A DNA stretch of 64,000 nucleotides, taken from Sandaracinaceae bacterium. Lineage in GTDB: Bacteria > Myxococcota_A > Polyangia > Polyangiales > Sandaracinaceae. This document shows, in pieces, positions 10,311 to 60,527 of this stretch (position 1 is the stretch's first letter; every line of letters starts with the position of its first letter). A model generated the notes under the pieces. That model did not search any database. It had not been told where the DNA came from and was given only the letters and a program-made list of their open reading frames with translations. Made by a program: the position numbers and the translations under genes. The stretch is taken from positions 124,001-188,000 of the forward strand of contig JAVJQK010000063.1 of assembly GCA_040218145.1 (NCBI GenBank), in the 5' to 3' direction.

Positions 10311-10315
10311 GCAGA

Positions 10316-10454
10316 CCGGGGACGATCCTACTCATTCGTCAAACTCGTTGGCCCATCTCGATACGTGTCATCGAGGGGGCTCAGAGCTCGTTCCACTCGC
10401 CATCGAGGCAGCTCACCTGGTCGGGATAGATCTCGCGGTAGGCGAGGCAGCTCT
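10316..10454. repeat. Direct repeat copy A (about 140 bp)
   Basis: It covers the 3' end and downstream region of the lipoprotein gene at 10381-11244. It matches copy B at 11291-11431 with about seven substitutions and one 2-base length difference, and it includes a long central stretch of identity. The offset between the copies is 975 bp. Confidence 0.9.
10357..10375. terminator. Hairpin between two convergent lipoprotein genes
   Basis: CTCGAT and ATCGAG pair around a 7-base loop, 5 bases after the stop of the minus-strand gene and 46 bases after that of the plus-strand gene. The same hairpin occurs in repeat copy B at 11332-11350. There is no T run, so terminator function is tentative. Confidence 0.35.
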
Positions 10455-36400: not shown

Positions 36401-36547
36401 CTCGACGCAAGGCTCGTCGGGGCGATCTGGAGGGACATCGCGCGGCCACCGGCAGCCCGGTGCTCCCTCTCGCATTTCGGACGCGCGATGTCGGGGGCAG
36501 CGCTCCCCGCGGCACGTCTACGGCGGCGTGGTATGAATGACGGTCGG

Positions 36548-37576
36548 ATGTCTGCGCCGCGCCCGGAGCTGATCGTCGTCGTGGTCGCGTGCCGCCGCGT
36601 GGCCCTGCTCGCGCGCTGCCTGGAGAGCGTGCTCGCGCAGCGGGGGGTGGCGTTCGGGGTGCACGTGGTGCTCAACGGGGCCCTCCCCGAGGTCGCGGCG
36701 GTCGCGGCGGGCGCGGCGAAGGATCCGCGGGTGACGGTCAGCGCGATCGACGCGGTGACGCCGGCCGAGGCGCGCAACGTCGCGGTCCGACGCGCCCAGG
36801 CGGAGCTGGTCTACTTCCTCGACGACGACGCATGGCTCCCCGACGACGGGGCGCTCGCGCGCGTGGTCGCGGCGTTCCGGGCCGACCCGGAGCTGGCGGT
36901 GCTCGGAGGGCCGAACCTCACGCCGCCCGATGACCCCGAGATCGCGCACCTGACCGGGACGCTCCTCGGGAGCTGGGTGGCGACGGGGCCCACCGCGGCT
37001 CGCTATCGGCCGCGACGCGCGGGCCCGGCGTCCGAGCGGGAGCTCATCCTCTGCAACCTGGCCGCGCGCCGCGAGGCCCTGGAGGCGCACGAGCTGCCCG
37101 CGTTCTTCCCCGGAGAGGAGAACGCGCTGCTCGCGCTGCTGCGAAACGAGGGCAAGCGGCTCGCCTACGATCCGGACATCTTCGTCTATCACCACCGCCG
37201 CGCGAGCCTCGGGGCCTACCTCGGACACGTGCAGTTCTATGGACGCGGGAGGGCCTACGCCCTCTTGCACACGCGGCGGGCCTTCCACGCGTTGCACGCC
37301 GCGCCCCTCGCGCTGCTGGTGTACCTCCTGCTCGCGCCCGTGCTCACGTGGCTCGAGCCGCTCCTCGCGGCGCCTCTGCTCGTCTATCTGGTTTGCTGTG
37401 TATTCGCTGCGTCCGGGATCGCGCTCCGGGCGCGGCGTCCCGGCTGGCTGCCCACGCTCGTGTGGCTCCTGCCCGCCACGCATCTGGCGTACGCGATCGG
37501 CTTCGTGTCGGGGCTCGCCGAGCGCGCGCGGAGGAGGGCCGCGCTCGAGGTGGAGTCCGTGGAGCCGGGGCGGTGA
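36548..37576 (+). CDS. Family 2 glycosyltransferase with C-terminal membrane helices
   Basis: A 342-residue GT-A enzyme. The N-terminal strand ELIVVVVACRRVALLARCL and the motif VYFLDDDAWLP (about 90-100, with the metal-binding Asp cluster) mark a family 2 glycosyltransferase. FFPGEENALLALL is a likely acceptor or base region. Three hydrophobic helices close the protein (about 245-320), so it is membrane-bound. The sugar donor and acceptor are unknown. An ATG at 36533 is also possible; 36548 was chosen because a TATGAA box lies 10 bases before it. Its stop overlaps the GTG of the HprK-like kinase gene, so it begins a coupled series. Confidence 0.85.
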   Translation: MSAPRPELIVVVVACRRVALLARCLESVLAQRGVAFGVHVVLNGALPEVAAVAAGAAKDPRVTVSAIDAVTPAEARNVAVRRAQAELVYFLDDDAWLPDDGALARVVAAFRADPELAVLGGPNLTPPDDPEIAHLTGTLLGSWVATGPTAARYRPRRAGPASERELILCNLAARREALEAHELPAFFPGEENALLALLRNEGKRLAYDPDIFVYHHRRASLGAYLGHVQFYGRGRAYALLHTRRAFHALHAAPLALLVYLLLAPVLTWLEPLLAAPLLVYLVCCVFAASGIALRARRPGWLPTLVWLLPATHLAYAIGFVSGLAERARRRAALEVESVEPGR

Positions 37577-38577
37577 GCGCCGAGCGTCGCCGCATGTCGG
37601 TGACGCTCCGGGGCGTGTCGGTCGTCATCGAGGGTCCACCGGAGGCGATCGCGCGGCTGGAGGTGCTCTTCGGGCTCGCGGCCGAGGGCCCGGCGGGAGA
37701 GGCGCGCGCGCACCTGGAGCTGGTCCGGGCCGAGCCTCGGCTCGCGCTGCCGCGCCGGGCCGTCGCCGATCAGGTCGTGCAGCGCGGCGTCGTCTACAAC
37801 CTCGACGGGACCACCTGGGTGCGACACCACGGCTGGGCGGTGACGGAGTACGACTTCGCGGCCGAGCGCGGACGGATCACGGGCCTGGAGATCGACGACC
37901 TGGTGGAGCTCGCCTACCTCGCGGCGCTGTCGCGGCTGGGGGCGTTCCTGGAGCGGGCGGGCTACGTGCGGATCCACGCGGCCGCGTTTCGGTGCGGGGA
38001 GCGCGGCGCCCTCTTCCTCGCCCCGAGCGGCGGCGGCAAGTCCTCTCTCGTGCACCGCCTCTTGCGCGCGGACGACGTGCACGTCCTGGGCGACGACGTG
38101 GCGCTCCTCGACCGTCGCGGTCGGCTGCACCCCTTCCCGACCTCGGTCGGGGTCCGCGATCCGGACGCGGCCGAGGGGCTCGGCGCGGTGCACCCCTTCC
38201 CGCGCCGCTTCCACGGGCTCAAGTGGGTGGTCGACAGCCGCGCGCTCGCCGACCGCTTCGCCGACGCGCCGGCCAGGCTCGAGCGGGTCTACCTCGGGCG
38301 CTGGGTGAGCGCGCCGCCGAGCCGCGCGCGCGCCGCCTCCATGCGGGAGCGACTCGGCGCGGTGAGCCGCGAGCTCGTGGTCGGGGCCGGGCTCCCTCAG
38401 GTGGTCGAGCTGGTGATCCCGCGCGGGGCGCGCGACGCGCCGACTCAGCTGCCGTCCCTGCTGCGACGGCTCGGAGCGGCGGCGCAGGTGCTGGCCAGCG
38501 CGCGCGCGCTCACCCTGGAGGTCCACGACCCGGCCGCGCTCGGCGCGCTGGTGATGGAAGACCTCGGCCATGACTGA
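37573..38577 (+). CDS. HprK-related P-loop kinase
   Basis: A 334-residue protein. An N-terminal domain (about 1-130) is followed by a P-loop APSGGGKSS (about 151-159) and a VHVLGDDVALLDRRG segment (about 172-186), the arrangement of the HPr-kinase-like fold. True HprK phosphorylates HPr serine; this protein lacks the HprK N-terminal domain and no HPr gene is nearby. Related kinases occur in exopolysaccharide loci beside putative nucleotidyltransferases. The GTG start overlaps the glycosyltransferase stop and has GGAG 8 bases upstream. Its end overlaps the next gene by 8 bp. The substrate may be a sugar or lipid carrier. Confidence 0.78.
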   Translation: MSAERRRMSVTLRGVSVVIEGPPEAIARLEVLFGLAAEGPAGEARAHLELVRAEPRLALPRRAVADQVVQRGVVYNLDGTTWVRHHGWAVTEYDFAAERGRITGLEIDDLVELAYLAALSRLGAFLERAGYVRIHAAAFRCGERGALFLAPSGGGKSSLVHRLLRADDVHVLGDDVALLDRRGRLHPFPTSVGVRDPDAAEGLGAVHPFPRRFHGLKWVVDSRALADRFADAPARLERVYLGRWVSAPPSRARAASMRERLGAVSRELVVGAGLPQVVELVIPRGARDAPTQLPSLLRRLGAAAQVLASARALTLEVHDPAALGALVMEDLGHD

Positions 38578-39850
38578 CCCGGCGACCTTCCCCGGCCCGT
38601 GGCGCGCCCTGCGCCGACACCTGCGGCCCTGGGTGGTCAAGAGCGCCGACTGGCCGCTGGTGGGCGATGTGCAGCGCGGTGTGTACGGGGTCCAGCGCGC
38701 GCGCATGGCCCGGGCTCTGCATCGGATAGCGCCGCAACGAACCGTGCTTTTGCGCGGGTCCGTGCGGCGCGCGCCGCGGCCGGGGCTCAGCGATCTGGAT
38801 CTGGTGGTGCTCCTCGACGAGGGGAGCGCGGCGGGGGAGCGCCGCGCCATCCGCGAGACGCTCGCCTGCGTGCGCCGCGTGAACCGGCTCGCGCCGCTGG
38901 TGCGCGACGTGACCTTCCTGACGCGCGACGACGTCGCCATCCTCTCGGCGCTGGACCATCAGCTGCTGGCGCTCGTTCGCGCCGATCACGAGCCGCTCGT
39001 GGAGGGCGACGCCGAGCCGTGGCTGGGTGACGGGCCGCCGGCCACCGAGGAGGCGTCGGCGATCGCCCGTCGGCACCACGTCGGCTACTGGACGCACAAG
39101 GGGATCGCGCAGCTCCTCCGCGAGGACGCGCCGGTGGGCCCGCTGCTGGCCGCGCGGTCGTTCGCGAAGGCCGCGGGCTACGCCGAACCCGACGCGGGTG
39201 GACCGGTGATCGACGTGGCGTCGAGCGGGCCGGCCGGCTGGCAGGACGCGGCCCGCGCGCTGGCGCGGCTCGACCGGGTGCTCGGCGCGGCGCCACCGCA
39301 TGACTCGCGGGAGACACCCGCCCCGGTTCGCGGCGCGATCGAGCTCGGCCCGCTCGCGCGGCTCGACGCCACGTTCGCGGTCGACGACGAGGGAGGGCTC
39401 TGGGTGGCGCTCGCGCCGGAAGCGCTCGACGCGGCGAGCTGGTCGGCCCTCCGCGCGGGCCCGCCGGCGCGCCTGATCACACCCCGTCAGCTCGCGCGCC
39501 GCGCGATGCTGCCGCGCCGGGGCTGGGACGCGCTCGCGCCGCTCGCCCCCACCGAGGCGCTCGGCCCGTCCGAGATCGCGCCCGGCGAGCTGGCCTGGGT
39601 GGCGCGCTGGACGCTGGTGGAGGGGATGTTCGCGCTCCGCGAGCGCCTCGCCGAGCCGTGGTCCGCGCGCGAGCGGCGGCGGCACGAGCGCTTCGTGCTC
39701 GAGCGCGTCCCGCGCTGCTGGCGCCTGACGGGAGGCCAGGGCGAGCCGCCGACGGGCGGGGTCGGGGAGGGCGCCTCGCCGGACGCGCTCCACGACGCGG
39801 CGCGGTCGGTGATCGCGGCGTCGAGGGGGAACATCGCCCCGAGCGCGTAG
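38570..39850 (+). CDS. Nucleotidyltransferase-fold protein 1
   Basis: A 426-residue protein. Residues 60-80 carry the pol-beta-type nucleotidyltransferase motif: RGSVRRAPRPGLSDLDLVV, that is G-S followed by the metal-binding D-x-D. A helical region then holds ARRHHVGYWTHKGI. The C-terminal 220 residues are unassigned. The length is far more than that of MNT-type antitoxins (about 100 residues). It overlaps the kinase gene by 8 bp, so both are co-translated. Together with three related domains nearby it suggests nucleotidyl or phospho-group transfer to a glycan or carrier. Confidence 0.75.
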   Translation: MTDPATFPGPWRALRRHLRPWVVKSADWPLVGDVQRGVYGVQRARMARALHRIAPQRTVLLRGSVRRAPRPGLSDLDLVVLLDEGSAAGERRAIRETLACVRRVNRLAPLVRDVTFLTRDDVAILSALDHQLLALVRADHEPLVEGDAEPWLGDGPPATEEASAIARRHHVGYWTHKGIAQLLREDAPVGPLLAARSFAKAAGYAEPDAGGPVIDVASSGPAGWQDAARALARLDRVLGAAPPHDSRETPAPVRGAIELGPLARLDATFAVDDEGGLWVALAPEALDAASWSALRAGPPARLITPRQLARRAMLPRRGWDALAPLAPTEALGPSEIAPGELAWVARWTLVEGMFALRERLAEPWSARERRRHERFVLERVPRCWRLTGGQGEPPTGGVGEGASPDALHDAARSVIAASRGNIAPSA

Positions 39851-39862
39851 TTGAACCCGGGC

Positions 39863-40831
39863 ATGAGGGATCCCTGCGCCGTCCACCCGGATGCGCCGTC
39901 GACGGCGGCTTGTGCCAGCTGCGACCGAGGGATGTGCGGCGCGTGCTGGACGCACCGGGTCGACGAGGAGCCCTGGTGCGCGTCGTGCGTCGCGGTGCTC
40001 GAGCAGCCGGTGTCCTGGCTGGCGTACGCCGCGGGCGCCGTCCTCGCGATCGGGCTGTCGTGGATCGGTCTGGCGCGCCTGCCGTCACCCGCTCGATGGA
40101 TCGCGCTGGGGATCGGGGTGTCGCTCGTGTCGCTGACCGCGTGGCGCCTGCGGAGGCGCGCCGCGTCCCGACGCGCCGGCTTCGTGGCGCATGTGCGCGC
40201 TCCCGACTCCGAGCCTCCGCGCGGGCCGCCGATGGGCTACCGGCAAGGGAGAGCGCCGCTGCGGGCGCGCCGCCTCGCCCCGCCGGTCTCCGGATCGCTG
40301 ACGGCGCTGATCGTCGGCAGCACGATGGCGCTGACCGCGTTCGCGTTCCCGAGCCTGTTGCAGCTCCCACGCTGGCTCGAGCTGGAGCTCGTCATCGCGC
40401 TCTGGTGGGGCGTGTGGACGCTGACGTTCGTGATCCTGCTCTACCGCGGCTGGCGCGTGGCGCGGGATCTCGCGCCGACCGGGGCGATCAGGGCGCCCGC
40501 GCGTGTCGCCCCGGGTTCGCGCTCGGGCTCCTCGAGGTGGACGTGGGCCGACGTGTTCGCCGGCGCCCTCGACCTCGACGGCTGCCTGGTCGTGCTCGCT
40601 GTCGCCGCGGCCTTCGGCGTCGCGTTCGTGATCGCCGAGCTGATCTTGCCGATGCTCCTGACGGGCGCCTACTGGCTGATCGTACGCGGGCTGACGTCGG
40701 TGGCGAACGACGACCACGGCTGCGAGCGGAGCTGGCCGCGCGCGCTGGCGTGGGGCGCCCTCTGGTCGACCGCCTACACCGCTCCGCTCGCCGCGCTGGT
40801 GTGGCTCGGTCACTGGCTGCTGCGCGCTTGA
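39863..40831 (+). CDS. B-box zinc finger membrane protein
   Basis: A 322-residue protein. The N-terminus has a B-box-like zinc-binding site (C-x-VHPDAPSTAACASC, then CGACW and CASC). Several transmembrane helices follow, about five (near 50-70, 75-92, 150-175, 185-205 and 240-285). Such B-box plus membrane proteins are common in Myxococcota and have no defined function. A TTG at 39851 could start it 12 bases earlier. Its 3' end overlaps the end of the flippase gene on the other strand by 22 bp. It lies inside the glycan-type gene block. Confidence 0.7.
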   Translation: MRDPCAVHPDAPSTAACASCDRGMCGACWTHRVDEEPWCASCVAVLEQPVSWLAYAAGAVLAIGLSWIGLARLPSPARWIALGIGVSLVSLTAWRLRRRAASRRAGFVAHVRAPDSEPPRGPPMGYRQGRAPLRARRLAPPVSGSLTALIVGSTMALTAFAFPSLLQLPRWLELELVIALWWGVWTLTFVILLYRGWRVARDLAPTGAIRAPARVAPGSRSGSSRWTWADVFAGALDLDGCLVVLAVAAAFGVAFVIAELILPMLLTGAYWLIVRGLTSVANDDHGCERSWPRALAWGALWSTAYTAPLAALVWLGHWLLRA

Positions 40832-43509
40832 GCCGACGGGTCGTCGAGCGGCGGCGCGTCATCGAGCTGCGCGGTGCGCTCCTCACGCCACGCGCGGAGG
40901 GCGCGGCGCGCGCTCGCCGGGTCGGCCTCGCCCGACGCGAGCAGCGCGGCCAGCGGGTCGTCGCGCAGGCGTGTGTAGCGCGCGATCACCTCGGCGCGCG
41001 TCGCGCCCGGATCCACCCCGTCCATCCAGAGGCTCAGCGCGGGCAGGCGCGCGAAGAGGAGCGCGCGCGCTCTGCGGTCCAGGTCGCCGCGCGCGAGGCG
41101 GGCGAGATCGCGATCGAGCCACACCAGCGCGTGCACGATCGAGCGCAGCGCGGCCCGGGACAGCGCGGCGTCGGGAGGGCGCGGCGCGCGCGGGGTCAGG
41201 CCCTCGAGGTCGCGCCCGTGCGCGGCGCGCGCGGTGTGGAAGAGGGGGGCGTGCTCGATGAGCGGGTCCCGCTCGAGCGCCGCATGCGGCAGCAGGTGCA
41301 CGCACGGGTAGGCGCGAAAGGGGGGCGGGAGAGGGGCCTGCGCCAGCTCGGCCCGCATGAACGCGAGCACCGCCTCGAGCGGAGGGTCCTCGGCCAGGCC
41401 GACCGCGAGGAGCGGGTCGTCGTCGGTCGGGCCGGTGGGGCTCAGCAGCAGGCTGCTCGACGGGGCGAAGAGCGAGTGCGCGGCCCGGCCCCTCGCGGCG
41501 CCGCGCGCCTCCGCGTCGTCGAGCCAGCCGAGCGGCTCCGAAGCGGGCTCACGGATCACGACCTCGGCGGGGGCCGGCTCGGCGGCGTACGCGCGTCGCA
41601 GCTCCCAGAGGCTGGCCGTCAGCGCGGCCGCGGTCTGCTCCGGGGTCAGCCAGCCGCGCACCCGGGCGCGTCCCGCGGCCTCGGGCGGCAGGGGCAAGCC
41701 GCGCGCGCGGGCGTCGGCGACGATCTCCTCGAGGCTGCGCGGCACGTAGCGGGCGAACCAGCGGAAGGACTCGAGCGTGGCGTCGGCGCGCGCGCTGCCG
41801 TCCGCGCGGGCCTGCGCGAGGGTGTTGCGCTGGAGGCGGAGCGCGCGAGAGACCGCGTGCCCGAGCGCGCTCGCTCGTCGGTCCGCCTCCGACACCTCGG
41901 GGTCGACGCGCGTCCCGTAGGTGGGCCGCGCCACGTCGATCGAGAGCAGCGGGTGGCCCAGCCGGCGAGCCGCGTGGAAGAGCGCGGCGTCGAGGCAGAG
42001 CGCGTGGGTGGGGAAGAGCCGATCCGCGAGCGGCGCGCGCGGGACCAGACGCGGCGGGGGCGCGCCCACGGTGGCCACGATCAGATCGACGTCGCTCTTG
42101 CCCATGACGAAGCGGCGCGGCTCGCCCGCGCTCCCGGAGATCTCCACCGCCCGCACGTCCGGTCGCGCCGCGAGCCCCTCGGTCAGACGGCGGACCCGGC
42201 GCGCGAGGAGGCGCTCGAGGAGGGCTCGGCCGAAGGGGAGCTTCGCGATCGCGAACGCGAGGGGCGCGCGCGGCGCCTGCACGGCCACGTACGCGAGCGC
42301 GGCCGCGCCGAGGAGCTGCACCGCCGCGCGCAGGACCCGAGCCCACGCCGCGCCGTTCGCGCCGTACGCGGGCACCCACAGCGCGAACGACACGGCCGAG
42401 GTCACGCCGACCGCCAGCGCGAGGAACACGAGCGACGCCTCGCGATCCTTCGCCTGCAGCCAGACCTCGAGCGGCCGCGCGACCGCGGCCAGCGCGATGA
42501 CCGGGCACATGAAGCGGATCGTCTCGACCAGCTCGGCGCGGATCTCACCCACCAGGATCAGCGACGCGAGGGGCGCGGCGAGCGCCACGCCGCCGCCGAG
42601 CGTGATCGCCAGGCCGGCCACCCCGAGCGCCTGGCGGCGCGTGATGAAGCGGTCTCGCTGGCGCGCGAGGCGAGGGAACGCCGCGAGGGTCAGGGCGCCG
42701 ACGATCGAGAGCGACCCGCCGACGATCTTCGTCGCGATGCCGAGCTCCGCCGTCTGTGACAGCCCACCGGTCGCGCCGAGGATCAGCACGTCGAGCTGCG
42801 CGCTCCCGGAGGCCAGCAGGGTGGCCAGCCAGAAGGCGCCGCCCTCGCGGACCAGCCCGCGGAGTGAGCCCGAAGGCGCGTCCGCGGGGATCTTCGCGCG
42901 CGCCAGTCGCGCGGTGGCCACGAGCATCGTGAGCTGCGAGGCGCCGCGCCCGAGGGCCCAGCCCCAGACGCCTGCCCCGAGCGCGGCCGCGGGGCCCGTC
43001 ACGGCCAGCTCGAGCGCCTTCGTGCCCAGGGCGATCTTGGCGAGGGAGGTGAAGCCGCCCGCGCCCGCGAGGGTGGCCCGCGGGACCTCGTGCACGGCGC
43101 GCACCCCGGCGAGCGCGAAGAAGACGATCGCCAGCCCCGCGTGCTCGGGCGCCTGCGTCACGGCGACGGCCGCGTAGCCCGCGGTGAGCCCGGCCGCGGT
43201 CACCGCTCGGAGCAGCTGCCCCCGCGCGAGCAGGCGCGCCCCCACCCGCCCGCGGGCCGCGCGGCGCAGGAGCACGGGGTAGAGGCCGAGGTCGAGCACG
43301 CGGAAGGCCACCGCGCCTGCGGCCTCCGAGACGAAGACCACCCCGACGAGCTCCATCGAGACGAGCCGCGTGACGACCGCGAGCACGACGAAGTCGAGCC
43401 CCTTGGAGCCGTAGCGGCTCACCAGGTTGGCGCCGAAGTCGCGCAGGAGGCCGCCCGTACTCTTGGAGGCGCTGCTCTGCGGGGCCGTGCTCTTCGACGC
43501 TGCGTTCAT
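40810..43509 (-). CDS. Oligosaccharide flippase fused to a nucleotidyltransferase domain
   Basis: An 899-residue protein with two parts. Residues 20-435 form about twelve to fourteen transmembrane helices with the pattern of Wzx-type polysaccharide flippases of the MOP superfamily (LLRDFGANLVSRYGSKGLDF at the start is typical). Residues 440-899 are soluble and begin with a nucleotidyltransferase motif (ISGSAGEPRRFVMGKSDVDL, about 458-477). The rest resembles the C-terminal parts of the neighbouring nucleotidyltransferases. One continuous frame covers both, so the fusion is not an assembly artefact that can be seen here. Flippases move lipid-linked glycans across the inner membrane; the extra domain may modify the cargo. 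The gene faces away from the next nucleotidyltransferase gene. Confidence 0.82.
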   Translation of the reverse strand: MNAASKSTAPQSSASKSTGGLLRDFGANLVSRYGSKGLDFVVLAVVTRLVSMELVGVVFVSEAAGAVAFRVLDLGLYPVLLRRAARGRVGARLLARGQLLRAVTAAGLTAGYAAVAVTQAPEHAGLAIVFFALAGVRAVHEVPRATLAGAGGFTSLAKIALGTKALELAVTGPAAALGAGVWGWALGRGASQLTMLVATARLARAKIPADAPSGSLRGLVREGGAFWLATLLASGSAQLDVLILGATGGLSQTAELGIATKIVGGSLSIVGALTLAAFPRLARQRDRFITRRQALGVAGLAITLGGGVALAAPLASLILVGEIRAELVETIRFMCPVIALAAVARPLEVWLQAKDREASLVFLALAVGVTSAVSFALWVPAYGANGAAWARVLRAAVQLLGAAALAYVAVQAPRAPLAFAIAKLPFGRALLERLLARRVRRLTEGLAARPDVRAVEISGSAGEPRRFVMGKSDVDLIVATVGAPPPRLVPRAPLADRLFPTHALCLDAALFHAARRLGHPLLSIDVARPTYGTRVDPEVSEADRRASALGHAVSRALRLQRNTLAQARADGSARADATLESFRWFARYVPRSLEEIVADARARGLPLPPEAAGRARVRGWLTPEQTAAALTASLWELRRAYAAEPAPAEVVIREPASEPLGWLDDAEARGAARGRAAHSLFAPSSSLLLSPTGPTDDDPLLAVGLAEDPPLEAVLAFMRAELAQAPLPPPFRAYPCVHLLPHAALERDPLIEHAPLFHTARAAHGRDLEGLTPRAPRPPDAALSRAALRSIVHALVWLDRDLARLARGDLDRRARALLFARLPALSLWMDGVDPGATRAEVIARYTRLRDDPLAALLASGEADPASARRALRAWREERTAQLDDAPPLDDPSAQARSSQ

Positions 43510-43603
43510 CTCGCCCGGCGCGGCCGCAGTCTTCTACACTGCGCAGCCCAGTGGCAAGCAGCGGCAAGCGGGCGACGGACGCGGCGCGCGGTCGGAGCGG
43601 AGG

Positions 43604-44866
43604 GTGAGCGGGCGCTCGACCCGCTGGCTCCCGCGCGCGGCTCGCGTCGTCTCTCGCGCTCCGTGGGGCCGCGCGGCCGGGCGAGGCGCGTATCGGCTCG
43701 CGGCCGAGCTCGCGGGGCGGGACCTGGCGCGGATCCGCGGCGTGGACGCCGTGTATCTCACGGGCTCGGTGGCCGCGGACGAGGCGGCGCCGGGCTGGTC
43801 GGACATCGATCTGTTCCTGGCCGTCACGCTGCCGTCTCTCGAGGCGGAGATCGACTTGCGGCGTCGACTCGCGCGCTGGCAGCGTCGCGCCAACCGACTC
43901 GGGCCGCTCTTCGCCGGGATCGACTACGCGGAGCGCCGCGATCTCGAGGCGATGCGCCGCTTCGGCGACGCCTGGACGCTCGGGATGGAGCGGCGCTTTC
44001 GCCTGGTCGGCGGGCGAGGTGAGCTCCTCGACGCGGTGCCACGCGCGCCCCGCGAGGAGCGCCTGCTCCGGCTGAGCAAGGCGCTGCGGCGGCTCTGCAA
44101 GGTCGGCGCGGTGACGCTGCGCGAGGGCGATGGAGAGCGCACGCGGCGCATGACCGCGCGGCTGGACGGCGAGGGCGCCGACGCGTTCGAGCGGCTCGCG
44201 TCGGCGGGCGCGCGGCTGGGTGAGCTGGCCCGATCGGTGAGCGCGGACTGGACCGAATCGCCTGCGCCTCGACCGCCCGCGCCCGAGTCCCCAGCGCTCG
44301 CGCGCGCCTGCGACGCGGTGCGCGTGTGCAGTCGGGACACGTCGTGGGTGCAGCGCTTCACGGTCTGCGTCACCGAGGGCTGCGACGCGGCGCGCCTGCG
44401 ACGGCTGTCCGAGGCGGTCCGGTCCACGCCTCGCATGAGCGGCTGGCTGCCCGGGCCCGCGTGGCTGCCGGCGGCGGTCTGGGCCGCGCTCGCGGCGCTC
44501 GAGCCGGCGCCGATCGCGGGCCTCTCGGCGCCGGGGTCGACGGGGCGGGATGAGCTCGCGCCGCCCCGCTGGCCTTCGCCGTCGGACCTGCGGGTGCTGC
44601 TCCGCGCGGAGCGCGTGCATCTGGCCGTGCGCGCGAGAGGTCGCGCGTTGCGCGCGCGTCGGGATCCCGGCGCGGCGCTCGCCCGCATGGCCTGTGACGT
44701 CCGCCTCCACGCGCCCGCGCTCGATCAGCTCGCGGAGGGACGGACGGTGCGCTTCGAGCCGCGTTCGCCGCCCGGCGGCTCCGAGCGCGCGCTGCTCGGG
44801 GAGCTCCGCGGCTGGCTGGATCGCGCCCGCGTGGACTGGGCGGGCTGGGACGCGGCCGATGCGTGA
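43604..44866 (+). CDS. Nucleotidyltransferase-fold protein 2
   Basis: A 420-residue protein homologous over its length to the next gene. It has RGAYRLAAELAG near the start, then the motif LTGSVAADEAAPGWSDIDL (about 52-70) and ERRDLEAMRRFGDAWTLGME (about 110-128). The GTG at 43604 has GGAGCGGAGG directly upstream; an ATG at 43427 would run into the divergent flippase gene and adds a segment without likeness to the sister protein. The catalytic D-x-D is intact (SDIDL). It overlaps the start of the sister gene (ATG at 44859). Substrate unknown. Confidence 0.75.
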   Translation: MSGRSTRWLPRAARVVSRAPWGRAAGRGAYRLAAELAGRDLARIRGVDAVYLTGSVAADEAAPGWSDIDLFLAVTLPSLEAEIDLRRRLARWQRRANRLGPLFAGIDYAERRDLEAMRRFGDAWTLGMERRFRLVGGRGELLDAVPRAPREERLLRLSKALRRLCKVGAVTLREGDGERTRRMTARLDGEGADAFERLASAGARLGELARSVSADWTESPAPRPPAPESPALARACDAVRVCSRDTSWVQRFTVCVTEGCDAARLRRLSEAVRSTPRMSGWLPGPAWLPAAVWAALAALEPAPIAGLSAPGSTGRDELAPPRWPSPSDLRVLLRAERVHLAVRARGRALRARRDPGAALARMACDVRLHAPALDQLAEGRTVRFEPRSPPGGSERALLGELRGWLDRARVDWAGWDAADA

Positions 44867-46211
44867 TCCCCACGCCCTCGCCACCCGCGCCGTGCGGCTC
44901 GTCGCCTCGCATCCCCTCGGTCGCTGGGTGGGGCAGCGGGCGTACCGCGCGGTCGCGCGCGCGGCGGGGGCGGCGCTGGCGCCCATCCCCGGCGTGACGG
45001 CCGTCTATCTGGCCGGCTCCGCCACGCGCCCGTCGCGCATCGATCCCGGCCACTCCGACCTCGATCTGGTGCTGGTCACGGAGCTCGGCGGCGTCGAGGA
45101 AGAACTCCGCATGCGCGAGGCGCTGCGTCGGCGGCTCCGCGCGGGGCGGGCGCTCGTGCCGGCGCTGCACCAGGCGGACTACGTCGACGCGGTGGATCTC
45201 TCGCTCCTCCGCCGCTTCCCGAACGCCTGGAGCATGGGCTTCGACGAGCGGTGGGAGCGGCTCGCGGGGCGGGACGTGCGCCTCTCCGTGGCGCCCGCGA
45301 TCGACGCGCGGCAGCGTCGGCTCGAGCTCCTCCGCCGCTCGCTCCGCCGCTGGACCAAGGCCACCGTCGTGCTGCGCGATCCGAAGAGGCCCGACGCGCT
45401 GCGCAACGCGCGCCGCCTCTACGCCGACGTCGCCGCCGCGTGGCTCGAGGCGGACCGGCTCGCTCCCCTCGACGTGCTGTCGACGCGCGCCGGTCACCCC
45501 GACGCGTCGCGCCGTGGCCCGGTGGCGCTGCTCGGCGCCGCGCTGACCCTGCTCGAGCGGTTCGCCCTCGAGGTGGCCCCCGTCGGCGCCGCGCCCTTCG
45601 CGGTCGAGGGGACGCCGCCGTCGGCGCCCGATCTCGAGGCGCTCGACCGGGCCGCGGGCCAGGCGGGCCTCGGGCCGGTCGTCGTGGGCAGCCGCGATCC
45701 TTGCTCGACCGATCGCGTCGTGTTCGTGCGCGCGCCCGTCGGCTGCGACGCGGAGGACGCCGTGGCGCGCATGACGCGGGTCGCCGCCGCGAGCGCGCCG
45801 GGCGGCTGGATCGATCACCCCGTCTTGCTCACCGCCCCCCTCTGGCGCGCGGGCTGGCTCCTCGACGTGCCGCCCTTCGCGGGGGCGAGCCTCGCGCTCG
45901 CGTCGCCCGACGATCCGCCTCCCGCGCCGACCCGAGAGGACCTCGAGGCGATCCTCCCCGTCCTGCTCGTCGAGCGCCTCCTCCGCGCTCGCGGGCGCGG
46001 CTTCCGGCTGCGCGCGGCCTCCGATCCCCTGCGCGCGGCGTGGCGTGAGGTGCGGAGCCTCGCCCCTGCGCTCGAGGCGCTGCTCGACGGGGGCCCGGTC
46101 GTGTTCCGAGACGCTCCGTCGCGGCTCCCGGGCGAGGCCGAGCTGCTCGAGGCCACGCGCGCGCTGTCGGACCGCTTGCACGCGCGCTACCCGGCCGGAG
46201 GCGCCGCGTAG
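44859..46211 (+). CDS. Nucleotidyltransferase-fold protein 3
   Basis: A 450-residue protein, paralogue of the gene just upstream: QRAYRAVARAAG, then the motif LAGSATRPSRIDPGHSDLDL (about 52-70), then DLSLLRRFPNAWSMGFDERW (about 110-130). The G-S and D-x-D metal site is complete. The long C-terminal region is mostly helical with a beta segment. The ATG overlaps the previous stop by 8 bases, so the pair is co-translated and may form a heterodimer. It ends 48 bp before the giant GT-C-like gene on the same strand. Transfer of a nucleotidyl or similar phospho group to a glycan precursor is inferred. Confidence 0.75.
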   Translation: MRDPHALATRAVRLVASHPLGRWVGQRAYRAVARAAGAALAPIPGVTAVYLAGSATRPSRIDPGHSDLDLVLVTELGGVEEELRMREALRRRLRAGRALVPALHQADYVDAVDLSLLRRFPNAWSMGFDERWERLAGRDVRLSVAPAIDARQRRLELLRRSLRRWTKATVVLRDPKRPDALRNARRLYADVAAAWLEADRLAPLDVLSTRAGHPDASRRGPVALLGAALTLLERFALEVAPVGAAPFAVEGTPPSAPDLEALDRAAGQAGLGPVVVGSRDPCSTDRVVFVRAPVGCDAEDAVARMTRVAAASAPGGWIDHPVLLTAPLWRAGWLLDVPPFAGASLALASPDDPPPAPTREDLEAILPVLLVERLLRARGRGFRLRAASDPLRAAWREVRSLAPALEALLDGGPVVFRDAPSRLPGEAELLEATRALSDRLHARYPAGGAA

Positions 46212-46259
46212 CGTGGACGGTGAGCGGTTGCTATCTCGCTCCCGTGACCGGCGCAGGAG

Positions 46260-49200
46260 ATGACACACTGGGGTGACTTCAGCCGGGCGCTCTTCGTGTG
46301 GACGGCGTTCCTGGTCGTCACCCACGCGGTGGCGACGTTCGCGTTGGACAAGGCGGGCCGGTACGCGCTCTGGGACGAGCGGGCGCTCGAGCAGCACCGC
46401 ATCGACTACTCGTGGGAGCTCGACCTGATCCTGATGGCGGAGGACGGCGAGTGGTCGGCCGTCGACTTCCAGTATCCGCGCGGGCCGCTCTTCCAGCTCC
46501 TGGCGTGGCTCCCCACCGCCGCGCGGCCGAGCGCGGCGCATCCCCCGCCCGGTGAGCCGGGTGACGTGGGCTGGATGCTGCTCGGCGCGGAGGCCCTGGT
46601 GCAGCTCGTCTGCCTGGCCCTCGCGCTCGGGGTCGCCTTCTGCGCGGTGCGCGGGAGGTGGCGGCGTCTGGCGGTCGCGATCGCGCTCGGGAGCCTCGCC
46701 TTCGGCGCCGGGATCGAGACCCTCCGCGCGCTCATGTCGGCGCTCGTCGTGTTGACCTACGGCGCGCTCGAGCTGCGCTGGCGCCGTCACCCCTGGCGCG
46801 GCGCGTTCCTCGTCGCGGGGCTGGTGGCGCTCGCGGGCATGCTCTCGTTCGAGCGCTGGGCACTGTGCTGGATCGCGCTGCTCGTGATGCACGGCGTGGA
46901 GCTGCTCGGTCGACTCCGGCGCGGCGCTGCGCTCCGGCCCGCGTGGCGGCGCCTCGGCCGGGTCGCGGCCGCGCAGACGCTCATCTGCCTCGCACTCGCG
47001 ATCGCCCTCCACGCGCTGGGCGGATCGAGCTGGGACTACCTCTCGGGCTCGTTCCGCACCGGCGTGTCCTACGCCTCCACGCGCAGCATCCCGTGGCTGT
47101 CTCATGGCGTCAGCCCCGTCTGGGTCGGCGCGTTCCTCGCCGCCGCGCTGACGATCGCCGTCGGCTGGGTGGCGGGCGCGCCGCGCCGACGTCGCTACGC
47201 GCAGTGGATCTTCGGCGCGTCGGCCTTCTCGGTCTTCGCGCTCTTCCGCCCCTACCCGGGCCAGATCTTCCTCGGGCTGGCGCCGGCCGCCGTCGTGCTC
47301 GCGGTCATCGCCGGGCGCACGGTGCGCCTCGATCGGTTGGCCTCGCGGGCTGGCTGGCGCCTCGTCCGCGCCGCAGGCCACGGCCGGGTGCTCGGTGTCC
47401 CGGCCGGCGGCGCCCTCTGCGCCGCGCTCCTGGTCGCGTCCGCGGTCGCGTGGTTCGGCGCGTATCCCGAGACGCTGTGGTGGCGGCCGACCAACCTGCG
47501 CCGCGGCGTCGCGATGCTCGAGGGGGAGCTGGAGCGCGACAGCGACCATGTCACGGAGATCGGCCAGGCGGCGCGGTGGTTGCTGTCGAACGCGCCCGAC
47601 GACGCCTGCTTCGGGGTCTACCCGGGCGCCACCGCGCTCTACGCCTTGACCGGCGGCGACGGACCGACGCGCGGTCGCATGCGCTGGACCGACGGCGGGC
47701 CCGAGGCCCTCGCGGCGTCGATCCGAAGCGCCGACTGTCCGCACCACGTGCAGGTGCTCTACAGCTTCGACCGCGGACCCGCCGCGGGCATGGCGTTCGG
47801 TGAGGACTTCCTCGCCGTCTCCGAGCTCTACCGGCCGCGCGCGCGCGTCGGTCCGAGCACCTACGTGCTCGAGCGCCGCGAGGAGCCGGCGCCGGCGCAA
47901 GCGCGCCCCCTGCCGCTGCGCTCCGAACGCCGCACGCACACGCTCCGGGTGGGGGAGCGCCTTCACGTCGGCTTCGACGGGGAGGTCGCTGGCCACGAGC
48001 TGGTGGCGCTCGACTACCGGCTGTCCCTCGTAGGGCTGCTCCCTCCCCCGCTCGTCAACGTGCCGCGCTTGAAGGTGCGATTCACGCTCGGGGGACAGCC
48101 CGTGGGCGAGTGGCAGCCGATCAACGAGCGCGCGGTCGACGCGCCGGCCCGGCTGCACGCCGCCCCGGACCCCGAGGCCGCGGAGCGACGCTTCCTGGTC
48201 GAGCGTGAGGTGTACCGAGAGGTGATCGCCGACGGGCTGGAGCTGTCGGTCGAGGGCGTGGGGTGGCGCACCGCGCGCGAGGTGCGCCTGACCATCGAGG
48301 GCGCGCAGGCGCTGACGCATCCGCTCGCGTCGGAGCCGCCCCCCGCGCGCGGCTGCGATCGTCGGGTGTCGCTGCTCCCGCTCACCGAGGACGGGCGCGC
48401 GCTCGTCCGCAACGTGGGCCTCGGCGACGAGGAGGGCGGCTTCGACCTCGACGCCAACCCCCCGCTCGCGGATCCCCCCGAGGTCTTCCTCCCGACGCGG
48501 CCCTGTCCAGGAACGTGCGTGCACGCGGAGCTGTCGGTCGACGCCCCCGAGGACGCTCCTCCCAGCGACGGCGTGGGATGGGAGGTGCACGTGATCGACC
48601 GGGAGAACCGCTCGCTTCTCCACTCCGCCCCCATGGAGCCGGGAGAGAGCGAGGCGGTGTCGCTCCCGCTCGAGGCGTTCGCGGGCCGTGACGTGTGGGT
48701 GCGCTTCTCGGTCACGAGCGGCGACGACCCGGACGGGGACTACGCGCGGGTCGACGCGCCGAGGGTCGCGCCCTGCGAGGAGGCGGGCGATCCCCACCTG
48801 GACCCGCTCGTGTTCGGCGAGGCGGCGAGCGAGCTCGCGCGCGGGAGACAGACCGAGATGAGCCGGGCGCTCGACTGGGCGCGCGATCGCTTCGAGCAGG
48901 CGCCGGGAGCGTGCGTCGCGCTGCGCCCGAGCGGGGCGGGGCTCACGGCGCTGCGCGGGTTGACGGCGGGGCCCGGGCTCGTCACCTGGACCGCGGACGG
49001 GCTCGCGCGGCTCGGCGGCGAGGAGGCCCTGGCGTGCGAGCACCTCATCTACGACGCGGGCTCGTTCGACCAGGAGTGGGTCGCCGGGAGACAGCTCGCC
49101 CCTGGCTGGCCCGTGCTGTTCGAGCGCTTCGCGCCCGAGGCGCGCCTCTCGCCTCGCCTCTGGCTCCTCCGCCGCCGTGAGGCGCCGCGGGTCGCGCCGA

Positions 49201-50003
49201 CGCGGCCGATCGAGGTCGCGCGTGAGCCGAACGGGACCCATGGACTCGACCCCGCGGTGGCGGCCGATCACTTCCTCTCGCTCCGGTACTCGCTCCGCTG
49301 TGAAGGAGACGCGGCCACCGACGCCAGCGTCGAGGTGCGCTTCTTCGCGGGCGAGCGCCAGCTCGGACCGTACGTGCGGATCCCTCTCTGGCCTGACGCG
49401 GAGGGGCGCGGAGAGCTCTCTCTCAGCCCCCGCGCGGGCGCGCTCGAGCGGCGCTGGGCCGCCGGCGAGGCGTCCCTCGAGCCGCCCGTGGATCATCTCT
49501 CGCTCGCGGTCTCCGACGGGTGTCGGCTCGAGGTCGGCGAGCTGACCGCTCACGCTCCGCCCACGCCGCCCATCGAGCGTCCGACCGAGCGCTGCGACGC
49601 GATCGTCGACCTCGTGCGCGCCGTCGAGCGCGGCGAGGCGTGGGTGCGCTCCGCCGCGCCGATCGTGCGGGGGGGCGCGCTCGAGCTGTCCGAGAACCCT
49701 CGCGGCGATCCCTTGCCCGAGGTCTTCGTGCCCTTCGTCCCCTGCGCGGCGTCGTGCCTGACGGTGAGCGTCGAGCCCCTCGAGGGACCCGTCAGCGTCG
49801 AGGCGCACCTGATCGACGATCCGGATCGAGCGCGCGTGGTCCACGAGCGGCTCGAGGCGGGGACCGGGCTGGTCACGCGCACGGTCGGGCTCACGTCGTG
49901 GGCGCTGCGGCCCGCGCTCCTCCGCCTCGGGCTCGGCAGCGGCCAGGGTCGCGCGCGCGTTCACCTGGCGCGCGTCGAGCCGTGTCACGAGGTCGCACCA
50001 TGA
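46260..50003 (+). CDS. Giant membrane protein, GT-C-like, with duplicated extracytoplasmic modules
   Basis: A 1247-residue protein. The first 410 residues contain about ten transmembrane helices. An acidic loop after helix one (WDERALEQHRIDYSWELD) is the usual place of the catalytic acidic pair in GT-C glycosyltransferases. The rest is extracytoplasmic and contains two related Cys-bearing beta modules: one with PPEVFLPTRPCPGTC (about 740) and VDAPRVAPC (about 838), the other with LPEVFVPFVPCAASC (about 1160) and LARVEPC (about 1244). A GT-C transferase using a lipid-linked sugar is plausible but not proven. The ATG follows AGGAG with no spacer. Its stop overlaps the TrmH gene start (ATGA). 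Confidence 0.75.
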   Translation: MTHWGDFSRALFVWTAFLVVTHAVATFALDKAGRYALWDERALEQHRIDYSWELDLILMAEDGEWSAVDFQYPRGPLFQLLAWLPTAARPSAAHPPPGEPGDVGWMLLGAEALVQLVCLALALGVAFCAVRGRWRRLAVAIALGSLAFGAGIETLRALMSALVVLTYGALELRWRRHPWRGAFLVAGLVALAGMLSFERWALCWIALLVMHGVELLGRLRRGAALRPAWRRLGRVAAAQTLICLALAIALHALGGSSWDYLSGSFRTGVSYASTRSIPWLSHGVSPVWVGAFLAAALTIAVGWVAGAPRRRRYAQWIFGASAFSVFALFRPYPGQIFLGLAPAAVVLAVIAGRTVRLDRLASRAGWRLVRAAGHGRVLGVPAGGALCAALLVASAVAWFGAYPETLWWRPTNLRRGVAMLEGELERDSDHVTEIGQAARWLLSNAPDDACFGVYPGATALYALTGGDGPTRGRMRWTDGGPEALAASIRSADCPHHVQVLYSFDRGPAAGMAFGEDFLAVSELYRPRARVGPSTYVLERREEPAPAQARPLPLRSERRTHTLRVGERLHVGFDGEVAGHELVALDYRLSLVGLLPPPLVNVPRLKVRFTLGGQPVGEWQPINERAVDAPARLHAAPDPEAAERRFLVEREVYREVIADGLELSVEGVGWRTAREVRLTIEGAQALTHPLASEPPPARGCDRRVSLLPLTEDGRALVRNVGLGDEEGGFDLDANPPLADPPEVFLPTRPCPGTCVHAELSVDAPEDAPPSDGVGWEVHVIDRENRSLLHSAPMEPGESEAVSLPLEAFAGRDVWVRFSVTSGDDPDGDYARVDAPRVAPCEEAGDPHLDPLVFGEAASELARGRQTEMSRALDWARDRFEQAPGACVALRPSGAGLTALRGLTAGPGLVTWTADGLARLGGEEALACEHLIYDAGSFDQEWVAGRQLAPGWPVLFERFAPEARLSPRLWLLRRREAPRVAPTRPIEVAREPNGTHGLDPAVAADHFLSLRYSLRCEGDAATDASVEVRFFAGERQLGPYVRIPLWPDAEGRGELSLSPRAGALERRWAAGEASLEPPVDHLSLAVSDGCRLEVGELTAHAPPTPPIERPTERCDAIVDLVRAVERGEAWVRSAAPIVRGGALELSENPRGDPLPEVFVPFVPCAASCLTVSVEPLEGPVSVEAHLIDDPDRARVVHERLEAGTGLVTRTVGLTSWALRPALLRLGLGSGQGRARVHLARVEPCHEVAP

Positions 50004-56988: not shown

Positions 56989-58386
56989 TCAGCGCGACCA
57001 GCGGGGGCCGCGCTGCACGGCGGTGCCGCTCCAGCGCTCCGCGATGGTCGGGCGTCCCGCCCAGCGCACGAGCAGCAGCATCTGCTCGCCGCGATCACCG
57101 CGGCCCATCGGGGGCTGCTCGGCCCGCACCAGCAGGGTGCCGTTGGGGCGCTGCATGACGGTCACGACCGGGTCGCGCATCGACGGCGGGACGCTGCCGA
57201 GCGTCACGCCGCCCACCGAGATGGAGCGGCCGCTGAGGCTGATCTGCGTGGCGGGACCTCCGCGCGGGTTCCACACCGCGACGGTGTTGCCCGTCATGCC
57301 GGGCCCGATGAGCGTCACCGGGATGCTGACCTGCATCGGCACGAGGTCGGCCGGGACCTGGGGCTGCACGACCACGGGCGGGCGCTGGGGCGCGACGACG
57401 ACGCCGCCGCCAGGGGCCGGGATGTTGGCCGTGCCGACGTGGCCCAGCTCGCTGATGCCGAGGTTGTAGGGAGACATCGTGCCCTGGCGGTAGGTGCCGA
57501 CCCAGATGCGGATCGGGCCCGGGGGCGACGAGCCGGCGACGAGCGGGTTCATGCCGCTCCCGCCGTCGTCGTTGCAGAGCACCTGCCCGTTGGGGAGCAT
57601 CACGACCAGCGTCGTGTCCGCGGACGAGTTGACGATGAAGCGGATCTGCTGGAAGCCCGAGCGGCTCATCACCACGTGGCTGGGCTGAGGCGTGACGTAG
57701 CCGCGGCAGCTGGAGTTGAACTGCTGCGCGTGCACCGGGCCGCCCGCCGTGCCGCTGACGACGTGCGGGTCGGGCATGAAGCCCGCCGTCAGGCTCACCT
57801 GCCCGAACGCGGGCGGCATGCTGGGCTGAAGCGGGCCCTGCACGACCTGGGGGCGGCCGGGGCGGACGGGCGGCGCCGCGTTGCCGCCGAGGCTGTCGGC
57901 GGTGACGTGCGACAGCTCCGAGAAGCCGATGGAGTAGGGCGTGCCCGCGTTGGACTGGGAGTACGCGCCGACCCAGACGCGGATGTCACCCGGGGGGGAG
58001 CTGGTCTCGATGAGCGGGTTCATGCGGACCCCGCCGTCGTCGTCGCAGAGGATCTGGCCCGAGGGGAGCATGACCATCAGCGTCGCGTCGCGCTGCGCGT
58101 TCACGACGAACCGGATGTTCCGGAAGCCGGTGCGCGAGCGGACCACGTGGCTGGGCTGCGCGGTGATGTGTCCCCGGCACGCGGAGTTGATCTGGTTGGC
58201 GGACACGTTGCCGCCCAGGCTCCCCCGCATCACGTGCGGGTCCGGCACGAAGCCGGCGCGGAGGTTCGCGTAGCCGTAGGCCGGACGGGCCTGGGGAGCG
58301 AACTGTGCCTCTGCTCGACCCGCCCAGAGCGAGCCCACCGCCAACGCCGCCGTGAGCGTCAGTACCTTCGCGTTTCCGACCTTCAT
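56989..58386 (-). CDS. Exported protein with two tandem 140-residue repeats
   Basis: A 465-residue protein with a signal peptide (about 1-28). Residues 40-155 and 195-310 are duplicates: each has F-x-PDPHV, then CRGxxTxQPSHVV, then GQxLCxDDGG and MNPL, and ends in SSPPGxIRxWVG. The two paired cysteines and the DDGG loop suggest a Ca-binding beta domain of the type found in bacterial pre-peptidase or subtilase-associated domains. The C-terminal 110 residues form another beta domain. The ATG has GGAG 4 bases upstream. It is divergent from a subtilisin-type gene, which may be a partner. Confidence 0.75.
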   Translation of the reverse strand: MKVGNAKVLTLTAALAVGSLWAGRAEAQFAPQARPAYGYANLRAGFVPDPHVMRGSLGGNVSANQINSACRGHITAQPSHVVRSRTGFRNIRFVVNAQRDATLMVMLPSGQILCDDDGGVRMNPLIETSSPPGDIRVWVGAYSQSNAGTPYSIGFSELSHVTADSLGGNAAPPVRPGRPQVVQGPLQPSMPPAFGQVSLTAGFMPDPHVVSGTAGGPVHAQQFNSSCRGYVTPQPSHVVMSRSGFQQIRFIVNSSADTTLVVMLPNGQVLCNDDGGSGMNPLVAGSSPPGPIRIWVGTYRQGTMSPYNLGISELGHVGTANIPAPGGGVVVAPQRPPVVVQPQVPADLVPMQVSIPVTLIGPGMTGNTVAVWNPRGGPATQISLSGRSISVGGVTLGSVPPSMRDPVVTVMQRPNGTLLVRAEQPPMGRGDRGEQMLLLVRWAGRPTIAERWSGTAVQRGPRWSR

Positions 58387-58432
58387 CGCGCTCCGTCCCC
58401 CTGATCCACTGCCTGACATCGCCCTCTCGGGC

Positions 58433-58463
58433 GTGGTGGGCTTGCGACGCGCGAGCCCACCAC
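58433..58463. promoter_or_regulatory. Perfect 10-bp inverted repeat in the divergent promoter region
   Basis: GTGGTGGGCT and AGCCCACCAC are separated by 11 bases, 47 bases upstream of the tandem-repeat protein gene and 169 bases before the subtilisin gene. It may be an operator or a 5' mRNA hairpin. Nothing else stands out in the 245-bp gap 58387-58631. Confidence 0.4.
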
Positions 58464-58631
58464 TCGATTCAATTGCTCGCTTCCACCACGAAGTACCCAC
58501 ATACGCCCATCGGAGGCAAGGCCCGCCATCCGAGGATACGGACCCGCCCGGCGCACCTTCCCTTGGCGCCCCCTCGGCCGACGGCCCTCGCCCGCTTGCG
58601 AGCCTCACGGCCTTGGGGGAAGGTCCGCCGC

Positions 58632-60527
58632 ATGAGCGCCCGAACCGCGATCACGAGCCTGTCCCTCCTCCTCCTCCTGATGGCCTGCGGCGGAGAGACT
58701 CCGACCGAGGACTTCACCCCCCCGCCCGACGAGTCTCAGAGCGGCTCCGAGGACACGGAGGCGGCCTCTCCCTGGGCGTCGCTCGACACCGCGGCGCTCG
58801 TCGCGCTGTCGCGGGACCGCGTCGCCGCGCGAATCGCCGAGATCGACCCGGACTTCGACCTCGCGCAGCTCCCGGCCTGGATCGCCGACCCGGAGTCCGC
58901 GCCCGCGCTCGGCGACCGCGTGTCGGAGCAGCTCATGAACCTCGCGATCGTCGAGACGGCGGCGGGAGAAGACGCGCGCGCCACCGGGCTCATCCGGCTC
59001 GTCCGCGCCAAGGCGCGCAACCGGAACAACGCCTACACGGGGACCACGCTCCTCTCGGAGCTCGCCCGCCGTGGGGCGGGAGAGGAGGATCCCGAGGCGG
59101 CCGTGCGCGCCGTGCTCGAGGAGCTGCCCCGCAACCGCTTCGGCAGCGCGACCGTGGTCTTCCAGCTCTTCCAGAACCCGGGTCAGGTCGACGCCCGGCT
59201 CGAGCAGCTCCACACGCAGCTCGTCAGCCTCGACACCGCGGTGGCCGCGCTCTTCTACGACGCGATCCTGCGCCCCATCATCGCGCACCGCGACGTCTTC
59301 ATGAGCGCCATCGCGTCGGTCCGCGCGACGCACGCCGAGCAGCCCGAGGGCGAGGCCTACGCCTTCAGCACCGTCGACCTGACGCGGGCGCGCGACGCTC
59401 AGCCGGTGGTCATCGCGGTCTGGGACACCGGCGTGGCCGGCGCGCTCTTCGAGGAGCAGCTCTTCACCAACGAGGCCGAGACGCTCGACGGTGAAGACGA
59501 CGATCAGAACGGCCTCGTCGACGACCGCCACGGCGTGATCTCCGACCCGACCGAGGGGCAGGACGCCCTGACCTTCGAGCCGGGTGACGACGTGATCACG
59601 GAGTACGCGCCCTTCCTGCGCGGCATCATGGATCTGCGCGCCGGGCTCGCCTCGACCGAGGCGGCGCAGCGCGTGCTCGGCCTCATGGGCGCGGTGCAGG
59701 ACGCCGAGGCGCTCGAGGCGCTCGAGGTGAACCTGGACGCGATCGGCGAGTGGGCCCACGGGACCCACGTGGCCGGCATCATGACCGCGGGGCTCCCGCA
59801 GGCGCGCGTGGCGGTCTTCCGCTCCGCGTGGGCGGGCGAGGCGCGCCTCTACCACCACCGCGGACCGACCGACGAGGAGCTCGCCGCGGAGCGCCAGAAC
59901 GTCGAGGACATCGCGCGCTTCATCGATCTCCACGACGTGCGCGTGGTCAACGCCAGCCTCGGCTTCGCCCGGGACTACGTCGAGGCGCAGCTCCGCCACG
60001 AGGCCGACGCCTACCCCACCGAGGAGGCGGTCCGCGCGCGGGCCGAGGAGATCCATCGGCATCGTCGGGACAACTGGCGCCACGTGTTCGAGCAGAACCC
60101 CGACACGCTCTTCGTGGTCGCGGCGGGCAACAGCAACCGCGACATCGTCGAGTACGAGGACGTGCCCTCGAGCCTGGAGGGCCTCCCGAACCTGCTCGTG
60201 GTGGGCGCGGTGGATCGCTTCGGCGACTGGGCGACCTTCACCAACAGCAACCCGGACCGCGTCCAGGTCTTCGACCACGGCGTCGAGGTCGACAGCGTCA
60301 TCCCCAACGGTGAGCGCGTCCCGCTGAGCGGGACCTCCATGGCGTCGCCCAACGTGGCCAACCTGGCCGCGAAGATCCTCGCGGTGAACCCGCAGCTGTC
60401 GCCGGCGGAGGTCATCACGATCATTCGCGAGACCGGCACGCCCATCCCCGCGCCGTTCTACGGCGTCATCGCGCACGAAGAGCAGGCGCTGGCGCGGGCG
60501 CGCCGTGAGCGTCGCCGCCGTCGGTGA
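58632..60527 (+). CDS. Subtilisin-family serine protease lipoprotein
   Basis: A 631-residue predicted lipoprotein: leader ending in LMAC (Cys19), a helical prodomain-like region (about 40-255) and an S8 peptidase domain with Asp in AVWDTGV (about 265), His in HGTHVAGI (about 378) and Ser in LSGTSMASPNVA (about 568). The catalytic triad is complete. Long acidic insertions occur between Asp and His. The tail is a cluster of Arg. It should act at the envelope surface. GGGGGAAGG lies about 8 bases before the ATG. The frame is open upstream, but the lipobox fixes this start. Confidence 0.88.
   Translation: MSARTAITSLSLLLLLMACGGETPTEDFTPPPDESQSGSEDTEAASPWASLDTAALVALSRDRVAARIAEIDPDFDLAQLPAWIADPESAPALGDRVSEQLMNLAIVETAAGEDARATGLIRLVRAKARNRNNAYTGTTLLSELARRGAGEEDPEAAVRAVLEELPRNRFGSATVVFQLFQNPGQVDARLEQLHTQLVSLDTAVAALFYDAILRPIIAHRDVFMSAIASVRATHAEQPEGEAYAFSTVDLTRARDAQPVVIAVWDTGVAGALFEEQLFTNEAETLDGEDDDQNGLVDDRHGVISDPTEGQDALTFEPGDDVITEYAPFLRGIMDLRAGLASTEAAQRVLGLMGAVQDAEALEALEVNLDAIGEWAHGTHVAGIMTAGLPQARVAVFRSAWAGEARLYHHRGPTDEELAAERQNVEDIARFIDLHDVRVVNASLGFARDYVEAQLRHEADAYPTEEAVRARAEEIHRHRRDNWRHVFEQNPDTLFVVAAGNSNRDIVEYEDVPSSLEGLPNLLVVGAVDRFGDWATFTNSNPDRVQVFDHGVEVDSVIPNGERVPLSGTSMASPNVANLAAKILAVNPQLSPAEVITIIRETGTPIPAPFYGVIAHEEQALARARRERRRRR

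Follow-up and report, generated by a model that had tools for sequence, protein, structure and literature searches.

What task could four nucleotidyltransferase (NTase)-fold domains, one of them fused to a flippase, serve within a single block of genes? This question is raised by a locus of a marine myxobacterium, Sandaracinaceae bacterium, in a stretch of 64,000 nucleotides (here called the window; G000:C63:124001-188000) that is part of an 11.06 Mb genome. An original prediction had described three stand-alone NTase-fold proteins and a fourth such domain joined to a flippase, together with a family 2 glycosyltransferase (GT2), an HprK-like kinase, a B-box membrane protein and a GT-C-like giant, and had proposed a glycan pathway; all open reading frames (ORFs) that it named are present where it placed them. 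We find that the block is real but lineage-restricted and that, judged by their sequences, all four domains belong to the Pol-beta nucleotidyltransferase superfamily. A phospho-linked modification of a lipid-linked surface glycan, in which the fused domain would work at the flippase, is a tentative explanation by analogy, and we give it a probability of about 0.42. The block comprises the following features (window positions; supporting evidence in brackets, where TM stands for transmembrane and pN/pS for the ratio of nonsynonymous to synonymous differences):

36548..37576, plus strand: GT2, a family 2 glycosyltransferase with TM segments at its C terminus (PF00535, TM scan)
37573..38577, plus strand: HprK-like kinase (weak TIGR04352 match, catalytic-residue alignment, pN/pS)
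38570..39850, plus strand: NT1, an NTase-fold protein of 426 amino acids (reference NTase profile, alignment, pN/pS)
39851..40831, plus strand: B-box-like zinc-finger protein containing multiple TM helices (PF00643 below cut-off, TM scan, pN/pS)
40810..42234, minus strand: NTase half of the fusion, residues 426-899 (reference NTase profile, BLASTP, pN/pS)
42235..43509, minus strand: flippase half of the 899-residue fusion, residues 1-425 (PF13440, nine hydrophobic segments, pN/pS)
43604..44866, plus strand: NT2, an NTase-fold protein of 420 amino acids (PF01909, BLASTP to NT3, pN/pS)
44859..46211, plus strand: NT3, an NTase-fold protein of 450 amino acids and tandem paralog of NT2 (BLASTP, reference profile, pN/pS)
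46260..50003, plus strand: GT-C-like giant (TM scan, internal duplication, homologs)

Four nucleotidyltransferase-fold domains

A profile built from 12 NTase domains of Myxococcota was run over all six frames of 34.0-57.0 kb (23 kb). Exactly four are detected, between 38.6 and 46.2 kb and in the predicted arrangement of three stand-alone copies and one fused to the flippase: NT2 (E 2.8e-12), NT3 (E 9.9e-12), the fused copy (E 4.4e-7) and NT1 (E 1.1e-6), with the next candidate at E 1.2. At the protein level, the reference profile recovers NT1 at E 2.6e-7 and the fused NTase half at E 6.8e-8. The 12 reference domains were chosen with the window's own profile, so that this comparison is partly circular; an independent scan of 9 of the 12 put every one of these above the PF01909 gathering score. 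Among the block's own proteins, NT2 matches PF01909 (22.2 bits vs a cut-off of 21), and NT1 and NT3 have no Pfam match over cut-off. Since NT2 is also the only over-cut-off PF01909 match in the whole genome, the clustering of NTases is not genomic background. In a profile-profile comparison, the four-domain alignment matches the reference NTase set with 97% probability and PF14907 members with 0.6%.

Members of the Pol-beta superfamily are expected to carry hG[GS] and [DE]h[DE] in the core, and these served as the test motifs. In the alignment, G-S and S-D-x-D are invariant in 4/4 domains (SDLD in NT1, SDVD in the fused copy), which bears out the claim that G-S and D-x-D are kept throughout. 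A third acidic residue (I/A-D), the candidate third catalytic carboxylate, lines up in NT2, in NT3 and in the fused half, where it accompanies GS and SDVD; in NT1 it is unaligned. The profile searches do not place the four domains in unrelated folds.

Kinship among the four is uneven. NT2 and NT3 share 33% identity along 449-460 amino acids (BLASTP E 1.8e-19 and 2.5e-21) and are, on this evidence, tandem paralogs whose genes overlap by 8 bp. The matches of NT1 to NT2 (E 0.002) and of the fused copy to NT3 (E 5e-4) are confined to the NTase core. Four full-length paralogs were considered and are rejected outside the core, as NT1 and the fused copy show, in their C-terminal halves, no similarity to NT2 and NT3 above chance. 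These results suggest that the four domains belong to one superfamily, whereas a single family comprising all of them is unproven.

AlphaFold2 models reach a predicted local distance difference test score (pLDDT) of 41 for NT2, from a two-row alignment, and of 36 for the fused NTase half alone, both too low to use. The core of the NT2 model reads helix-strand(GS)-strand(DID)-helix-strand and has no significant structural match: Foldseek and VIA-align searches with this model return nothing significant, the top ranks go to generic alpha/beta sandwiches and to ribosomal and MamM-like chains, and the weak rows include AadA, a HEPN-MNT chain and the nucleotidyltransferase 1ylq. A sequence search of the PDB gave no relevant match, and searches with PADLOC and PHROGs gave no significant one. 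The weak rows bear on a reading in which the NTases act on small molecules or RNA (as drug-modifying, MNT-type antitoxin or defence enzymes) beside a polysaccharide transporter-like efflux protein. NT2 is indeed weakly similar to MntA (E 0.011) and to PADLOC PDC-S09 NTases (E 0.016), and the AadA and HEPN-MNT fold matches of the low-confidence model point the same way, but such matches are generic to the superfamily, the block genes include no HEPN or other toxin partner, and the GT2, HprK and GT-C neighbors fit poorly. We regard this reading as very improbable.

A further NTase-like family of ~300 amino acids, with a GGLSKQS...GDxD motif, was seen in five genomes of the survey, all of bacterial family f41.

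Selection, gene layout and genomic setting

A second assembly, G036, bears the same stretch and was counted as the same species; the nearest named record is Sandaracinaceae bacterium MED-G138 (SHBB01000188.1), which is 99% identical across NT3. Over 14.25 kb, the window and G036 differ by 172 substitutions and zero internal indels. The pN/pS values are 0.09 for the HprK-like kinase, 0.39 for NT1, 0.22 for the B-box-like protein, 0.37 for NT2, 0.18 for NT3 and 0.15 for the GT-C-like giant; within the fusion, they are 0.03 for the flippase half and 0.15 for the NTase half. Purifying selection thus acts on every block gene except GT2, which is identical in G036 and for which selection is not measurable because there are zero differences. 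As the substitutions come without internal indels and the pN/pS values are low, the block ORFs are real genes. The fusion, too, is unbroken in both assemblies and is therefore not an assembly error in one of them. An antisense ORF at 44370-49988 was also considered as a gene and is rejected (pN/pS 1.13). The GT2 gene, taken here as 36488-37576, is unchanged between the conspecific assemblies although the other block genes differ by ~1-2.5% in nucleotides.

The genes are closely packed. In order, the junctions measure -4, -8, 0, -22 (convergent), +94 (divergent), -8 and +48 bp; the first follows from a revised HprK start, probably GTG 37573, which makes the kinase gene share 4 bp with the end of GT2. 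The fusion gene lies on the minus strand between two tight plus-strand gene strings. On a larger scale, ~22 kb (34.8-56.9 kb) separate PhoH from the genes 56989-58608 and 58473-60527, and in the sister genus genome G045 PhoH directly precedes the relatives of these two genes, the ~22 kb being absent there. This stretch also carries unrelated HEAT repeats and genes of the DUF6968, AstE/AspA-like, beta-lactamase family, acetyl-CoA hydrolase family and DUF11 types. The G+C content of the block is 75-77% vs 70-75% in the remaining window, and the setting would agree with a lineage-specific insertion or with a gain at this site. A tRNA scan of the window found no tRNA, and promoter and terminator scans were likewise empty.

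Relatives were sought in 145 genomes of the order and in about 370-380 of the phylum, with the 2 to 15 best candidates per genome scored, so that distant relatives may have been missed. Across the order sample, searches with the kinase, the fusion and the NT2/NT3 profile yielded full relatives in the window's own genome and G036 only. Searches of the phylum sample revealed no confident relative of the full-length kinase or of the fused NTase half elsewhere, the NTase-core profile finds generic NTases only, and zero NT1 relatives are present among 38 related genomes. Because no confident relatives of the NTases, the kinase or the fusion were found outside the species in these samples, the co-occurrence survey gave no support either way.

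This setting raises the alternative that there is no single system at all, that is, a pair of rapidly evolving operons and a flippase gene in convergent orientation would be chance neighbors in a lineage-specific insertion, and the NTases would have unrelated jobs. Consistent with this, orthologs of the block genes are missing from the other genomes sampled, relatives of the giant have other partners where they occur, the region is absent at the same position in G045, and the fusion is transcribed opposite to the remaining block genes. However, four NTases fall within 7.6 kb and zero other over-cut-off PF01909 matches occur in the rest of the genome, the genes overlap, and every variable gene is under selection. 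Chance assembly is, in our estimate, somewhat unlikely.

Possible glycan or peptide modification

Tailoring kinases of the PsmK kind have a common H-K-D-D motif, and the block kinase keeps it: in an alignment with 11 HprK-like proteins of Myxococcota, its H (RIHAAA), its P-loop K (SGGGKSS) and its DD (LGDD) fall in the matching columns. The predicted HprK-like identity is upheld by this alignment, together with a weak match to TIGR04352 HprK_rel_A (E 4e-4; 19.7 bits, with the equivalog cut-off of 200 not reached); no Pfam model matches the protein over cut-off. In lasso-peptide pathways of this type, the kinase PsmK and the nucleotidyltransferase PsmN act on a peptide Ser that is phosphorylated and then hexosylated (PMC9266682). 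These enzymes belong to the HprK-related kinase A module (TIGR04352, PqqD and PF14907), which the block resembles in having an H-K-D-D kinase beside a nucleotidyltransferase. Unlike the module, the block lacks PqqD and PF14907, its kinase scores 19.7 bits vs 200, and it holds four PF01909-side NTases with glycan-type genes and a flippase fusion and no peptide genes. A diverged HprK/PqqD/PF14907 module was rejected by the six-frame scan of 34-57 kb.

Modification of a peptide or protein is the corresponding alternative, in which the HprK-like kinase would phosphorylate Ser, the NTases would attach a nucleotidyl group or a sugar to the phosphate in PsmK/PsmN-like fashion, and the flippase and glycosyltransferases would handle the product. 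PsmK/PsmN chemistry is a precedent (PMC9266682), and the distant Myxococcota kinase relatives are mostly found beside PqqD (six loci) and PF14907 (three loci, one of them also with PqqD) as nameable neighbors, with lasso-B-like or radical-SAM genes added by inspection. Against it, PqqD is absent from the six frames of 34-57 kb, the block NTases are not PF14907, and the overlapping genes leave no space for a precursor gene. We consider peptide or protein modification unlikely. In favor of a glycan role stands a looser parallel, the closest of its kind among the kinase relatives: a run in G167 (G167:C28, positions 7667-10921 of locus L106) that combines PqqD, an HprK-like kinase and two GT2 genes.

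Phospho-linked glycan modification is suggested by the domain content, the conserved residues, selection, the fusion recurring in a second assembly, the tight gene strings and literature precedents. GT2 exceeds the PF00535 cut-off (E 7e-16), as had been anticipated, and weakly resembles MftF and exopolysaccharide glycosyltransferases at scores far under their NCBIfam cut-offs. The N-terminal half of the fusion matches PF13440 (E 1e-6; 28.7 bits vs a cut-off of 23) with nine hydrophobic segments; it resembles Wzx-type flippases (PF13440 / PF01943), but in the fusion an NTase domain of some 470 amino acids follows, for which no confident relative was found elsewhere in 379 phylum genomes. Among the papers searched, nothing turned up on flippase-nucleotidyltransferase fusions or on HprK in exopolysaccharide loci. 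For the transfer step, the CpsC/LicD family offers a model, as an NTase-superfamily group that uses cytidine diphosphate (CDP) conjugates as donors in surface-polymer pathways (PMC11666461). The block NTases resemble LicD (PF04991) in superfamily and, if the proposal holds, in placing a phosphate-linked group on a glycan, but differ in motif context. Together with the eight-TM GT-C-like protein, GT2 and the PF13440 flippase make the lipid-linked glycan setting of the original prediction plausible, with the transfer chemistry inferred.

Several results weigh against this glycan reading. The PF04991 model has no match to E 1 in NT1, NT2, NT3 or the whole 899-residue fusion, and a profile of the NT2/NT3 C-terminal halves does not detect those of NT1 and the fused copy; the absence of detectable kinship between these halves weakens the case for a chemistry shared by all four. 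The scanned block genes include no recognizable priming transferase, polymerase or exporter, and no conserved neighborhood was found outside the species in the sampled genomes. At the loci of the giant's relatives, nothing matches the NTase or kinase profiles. In the six frames of 34-57 kb, the best PqqD candidate has E 3.5 and the best PF14907 candidate E 0.77, matching none of the four NTases. The analogy to known HprK-NTase loci is looser than originally claimed, since the Myxococcota loci combine HprK with PqqD and PF14907.

If glycan modification is correct, GT2, working at the inner membrane, would elongate a lipid-linked glycan, and the NTase-fold enzymes would transfer a nucleotidyl or phospho-X group onto it, LicD-like from CDP-conjugates; the acceptor could alternatively be a site first phosphorylated by the HprK-like kinase. 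The fused NTase would act on the flippase itself, coupling modification to flipping, and the GT-C-like protein would then work on the periplasmic side. The four copies may have arisen by one tandem duplication (NT2/NT3) and older divergence, and their donors or acceptors may differ. A more specific version, in which the flippase-tethered NTase tags the glycan during flipping, with three companion transferases and the kinase supplying alternative tags, would involve a coupling step undescribed so far, and we hold it to be decidedly unlikely as stated. Should the fusion couple NTase-fold chemistry to flipping, it would give a direct handle on the timing of glycan modification vs export in bacteria, and the HprK-plus-nucleotidyltransferase theme would be widened from peptides to glycans.

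The B-box-like protein and the GT-C-like giant

Several TM helices are found in the B-box-like protein by TM scan, but its B-box is weak (PF00643, E 0.0096, under the Pfam cut-off). The giant shows the TM pattern, with eight N-terminal hydrophobic segments, from which we infer the GT-C assignment, but none of its Pfam or NCBIfam matches passes the cut-off. Its soluble region after these segments consists of two copies of a ~380-residue unit (duplication E 1e-23).

Homologs of the giant, often in tandem pairs and with E values down to 6e-108, are present in its own genome (G000:C11:25100-27433) and in G018, G057, G063 and G078. A GT-C glycosyltransferase would be expected to carry acidic residues in the first periplasmic loop of its fold. 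With one relative, at locus L133, the giant shares a conserved WDxRALExHxIDY...DFxxPxGP stretch. An unnamed GT-C-like family that lacks a Pfam or NCBIfam model is distributed in Polyangiales (seven loci, including L133), and three GT-C-like family loci contain a weak AMP-binding-like neighbor.

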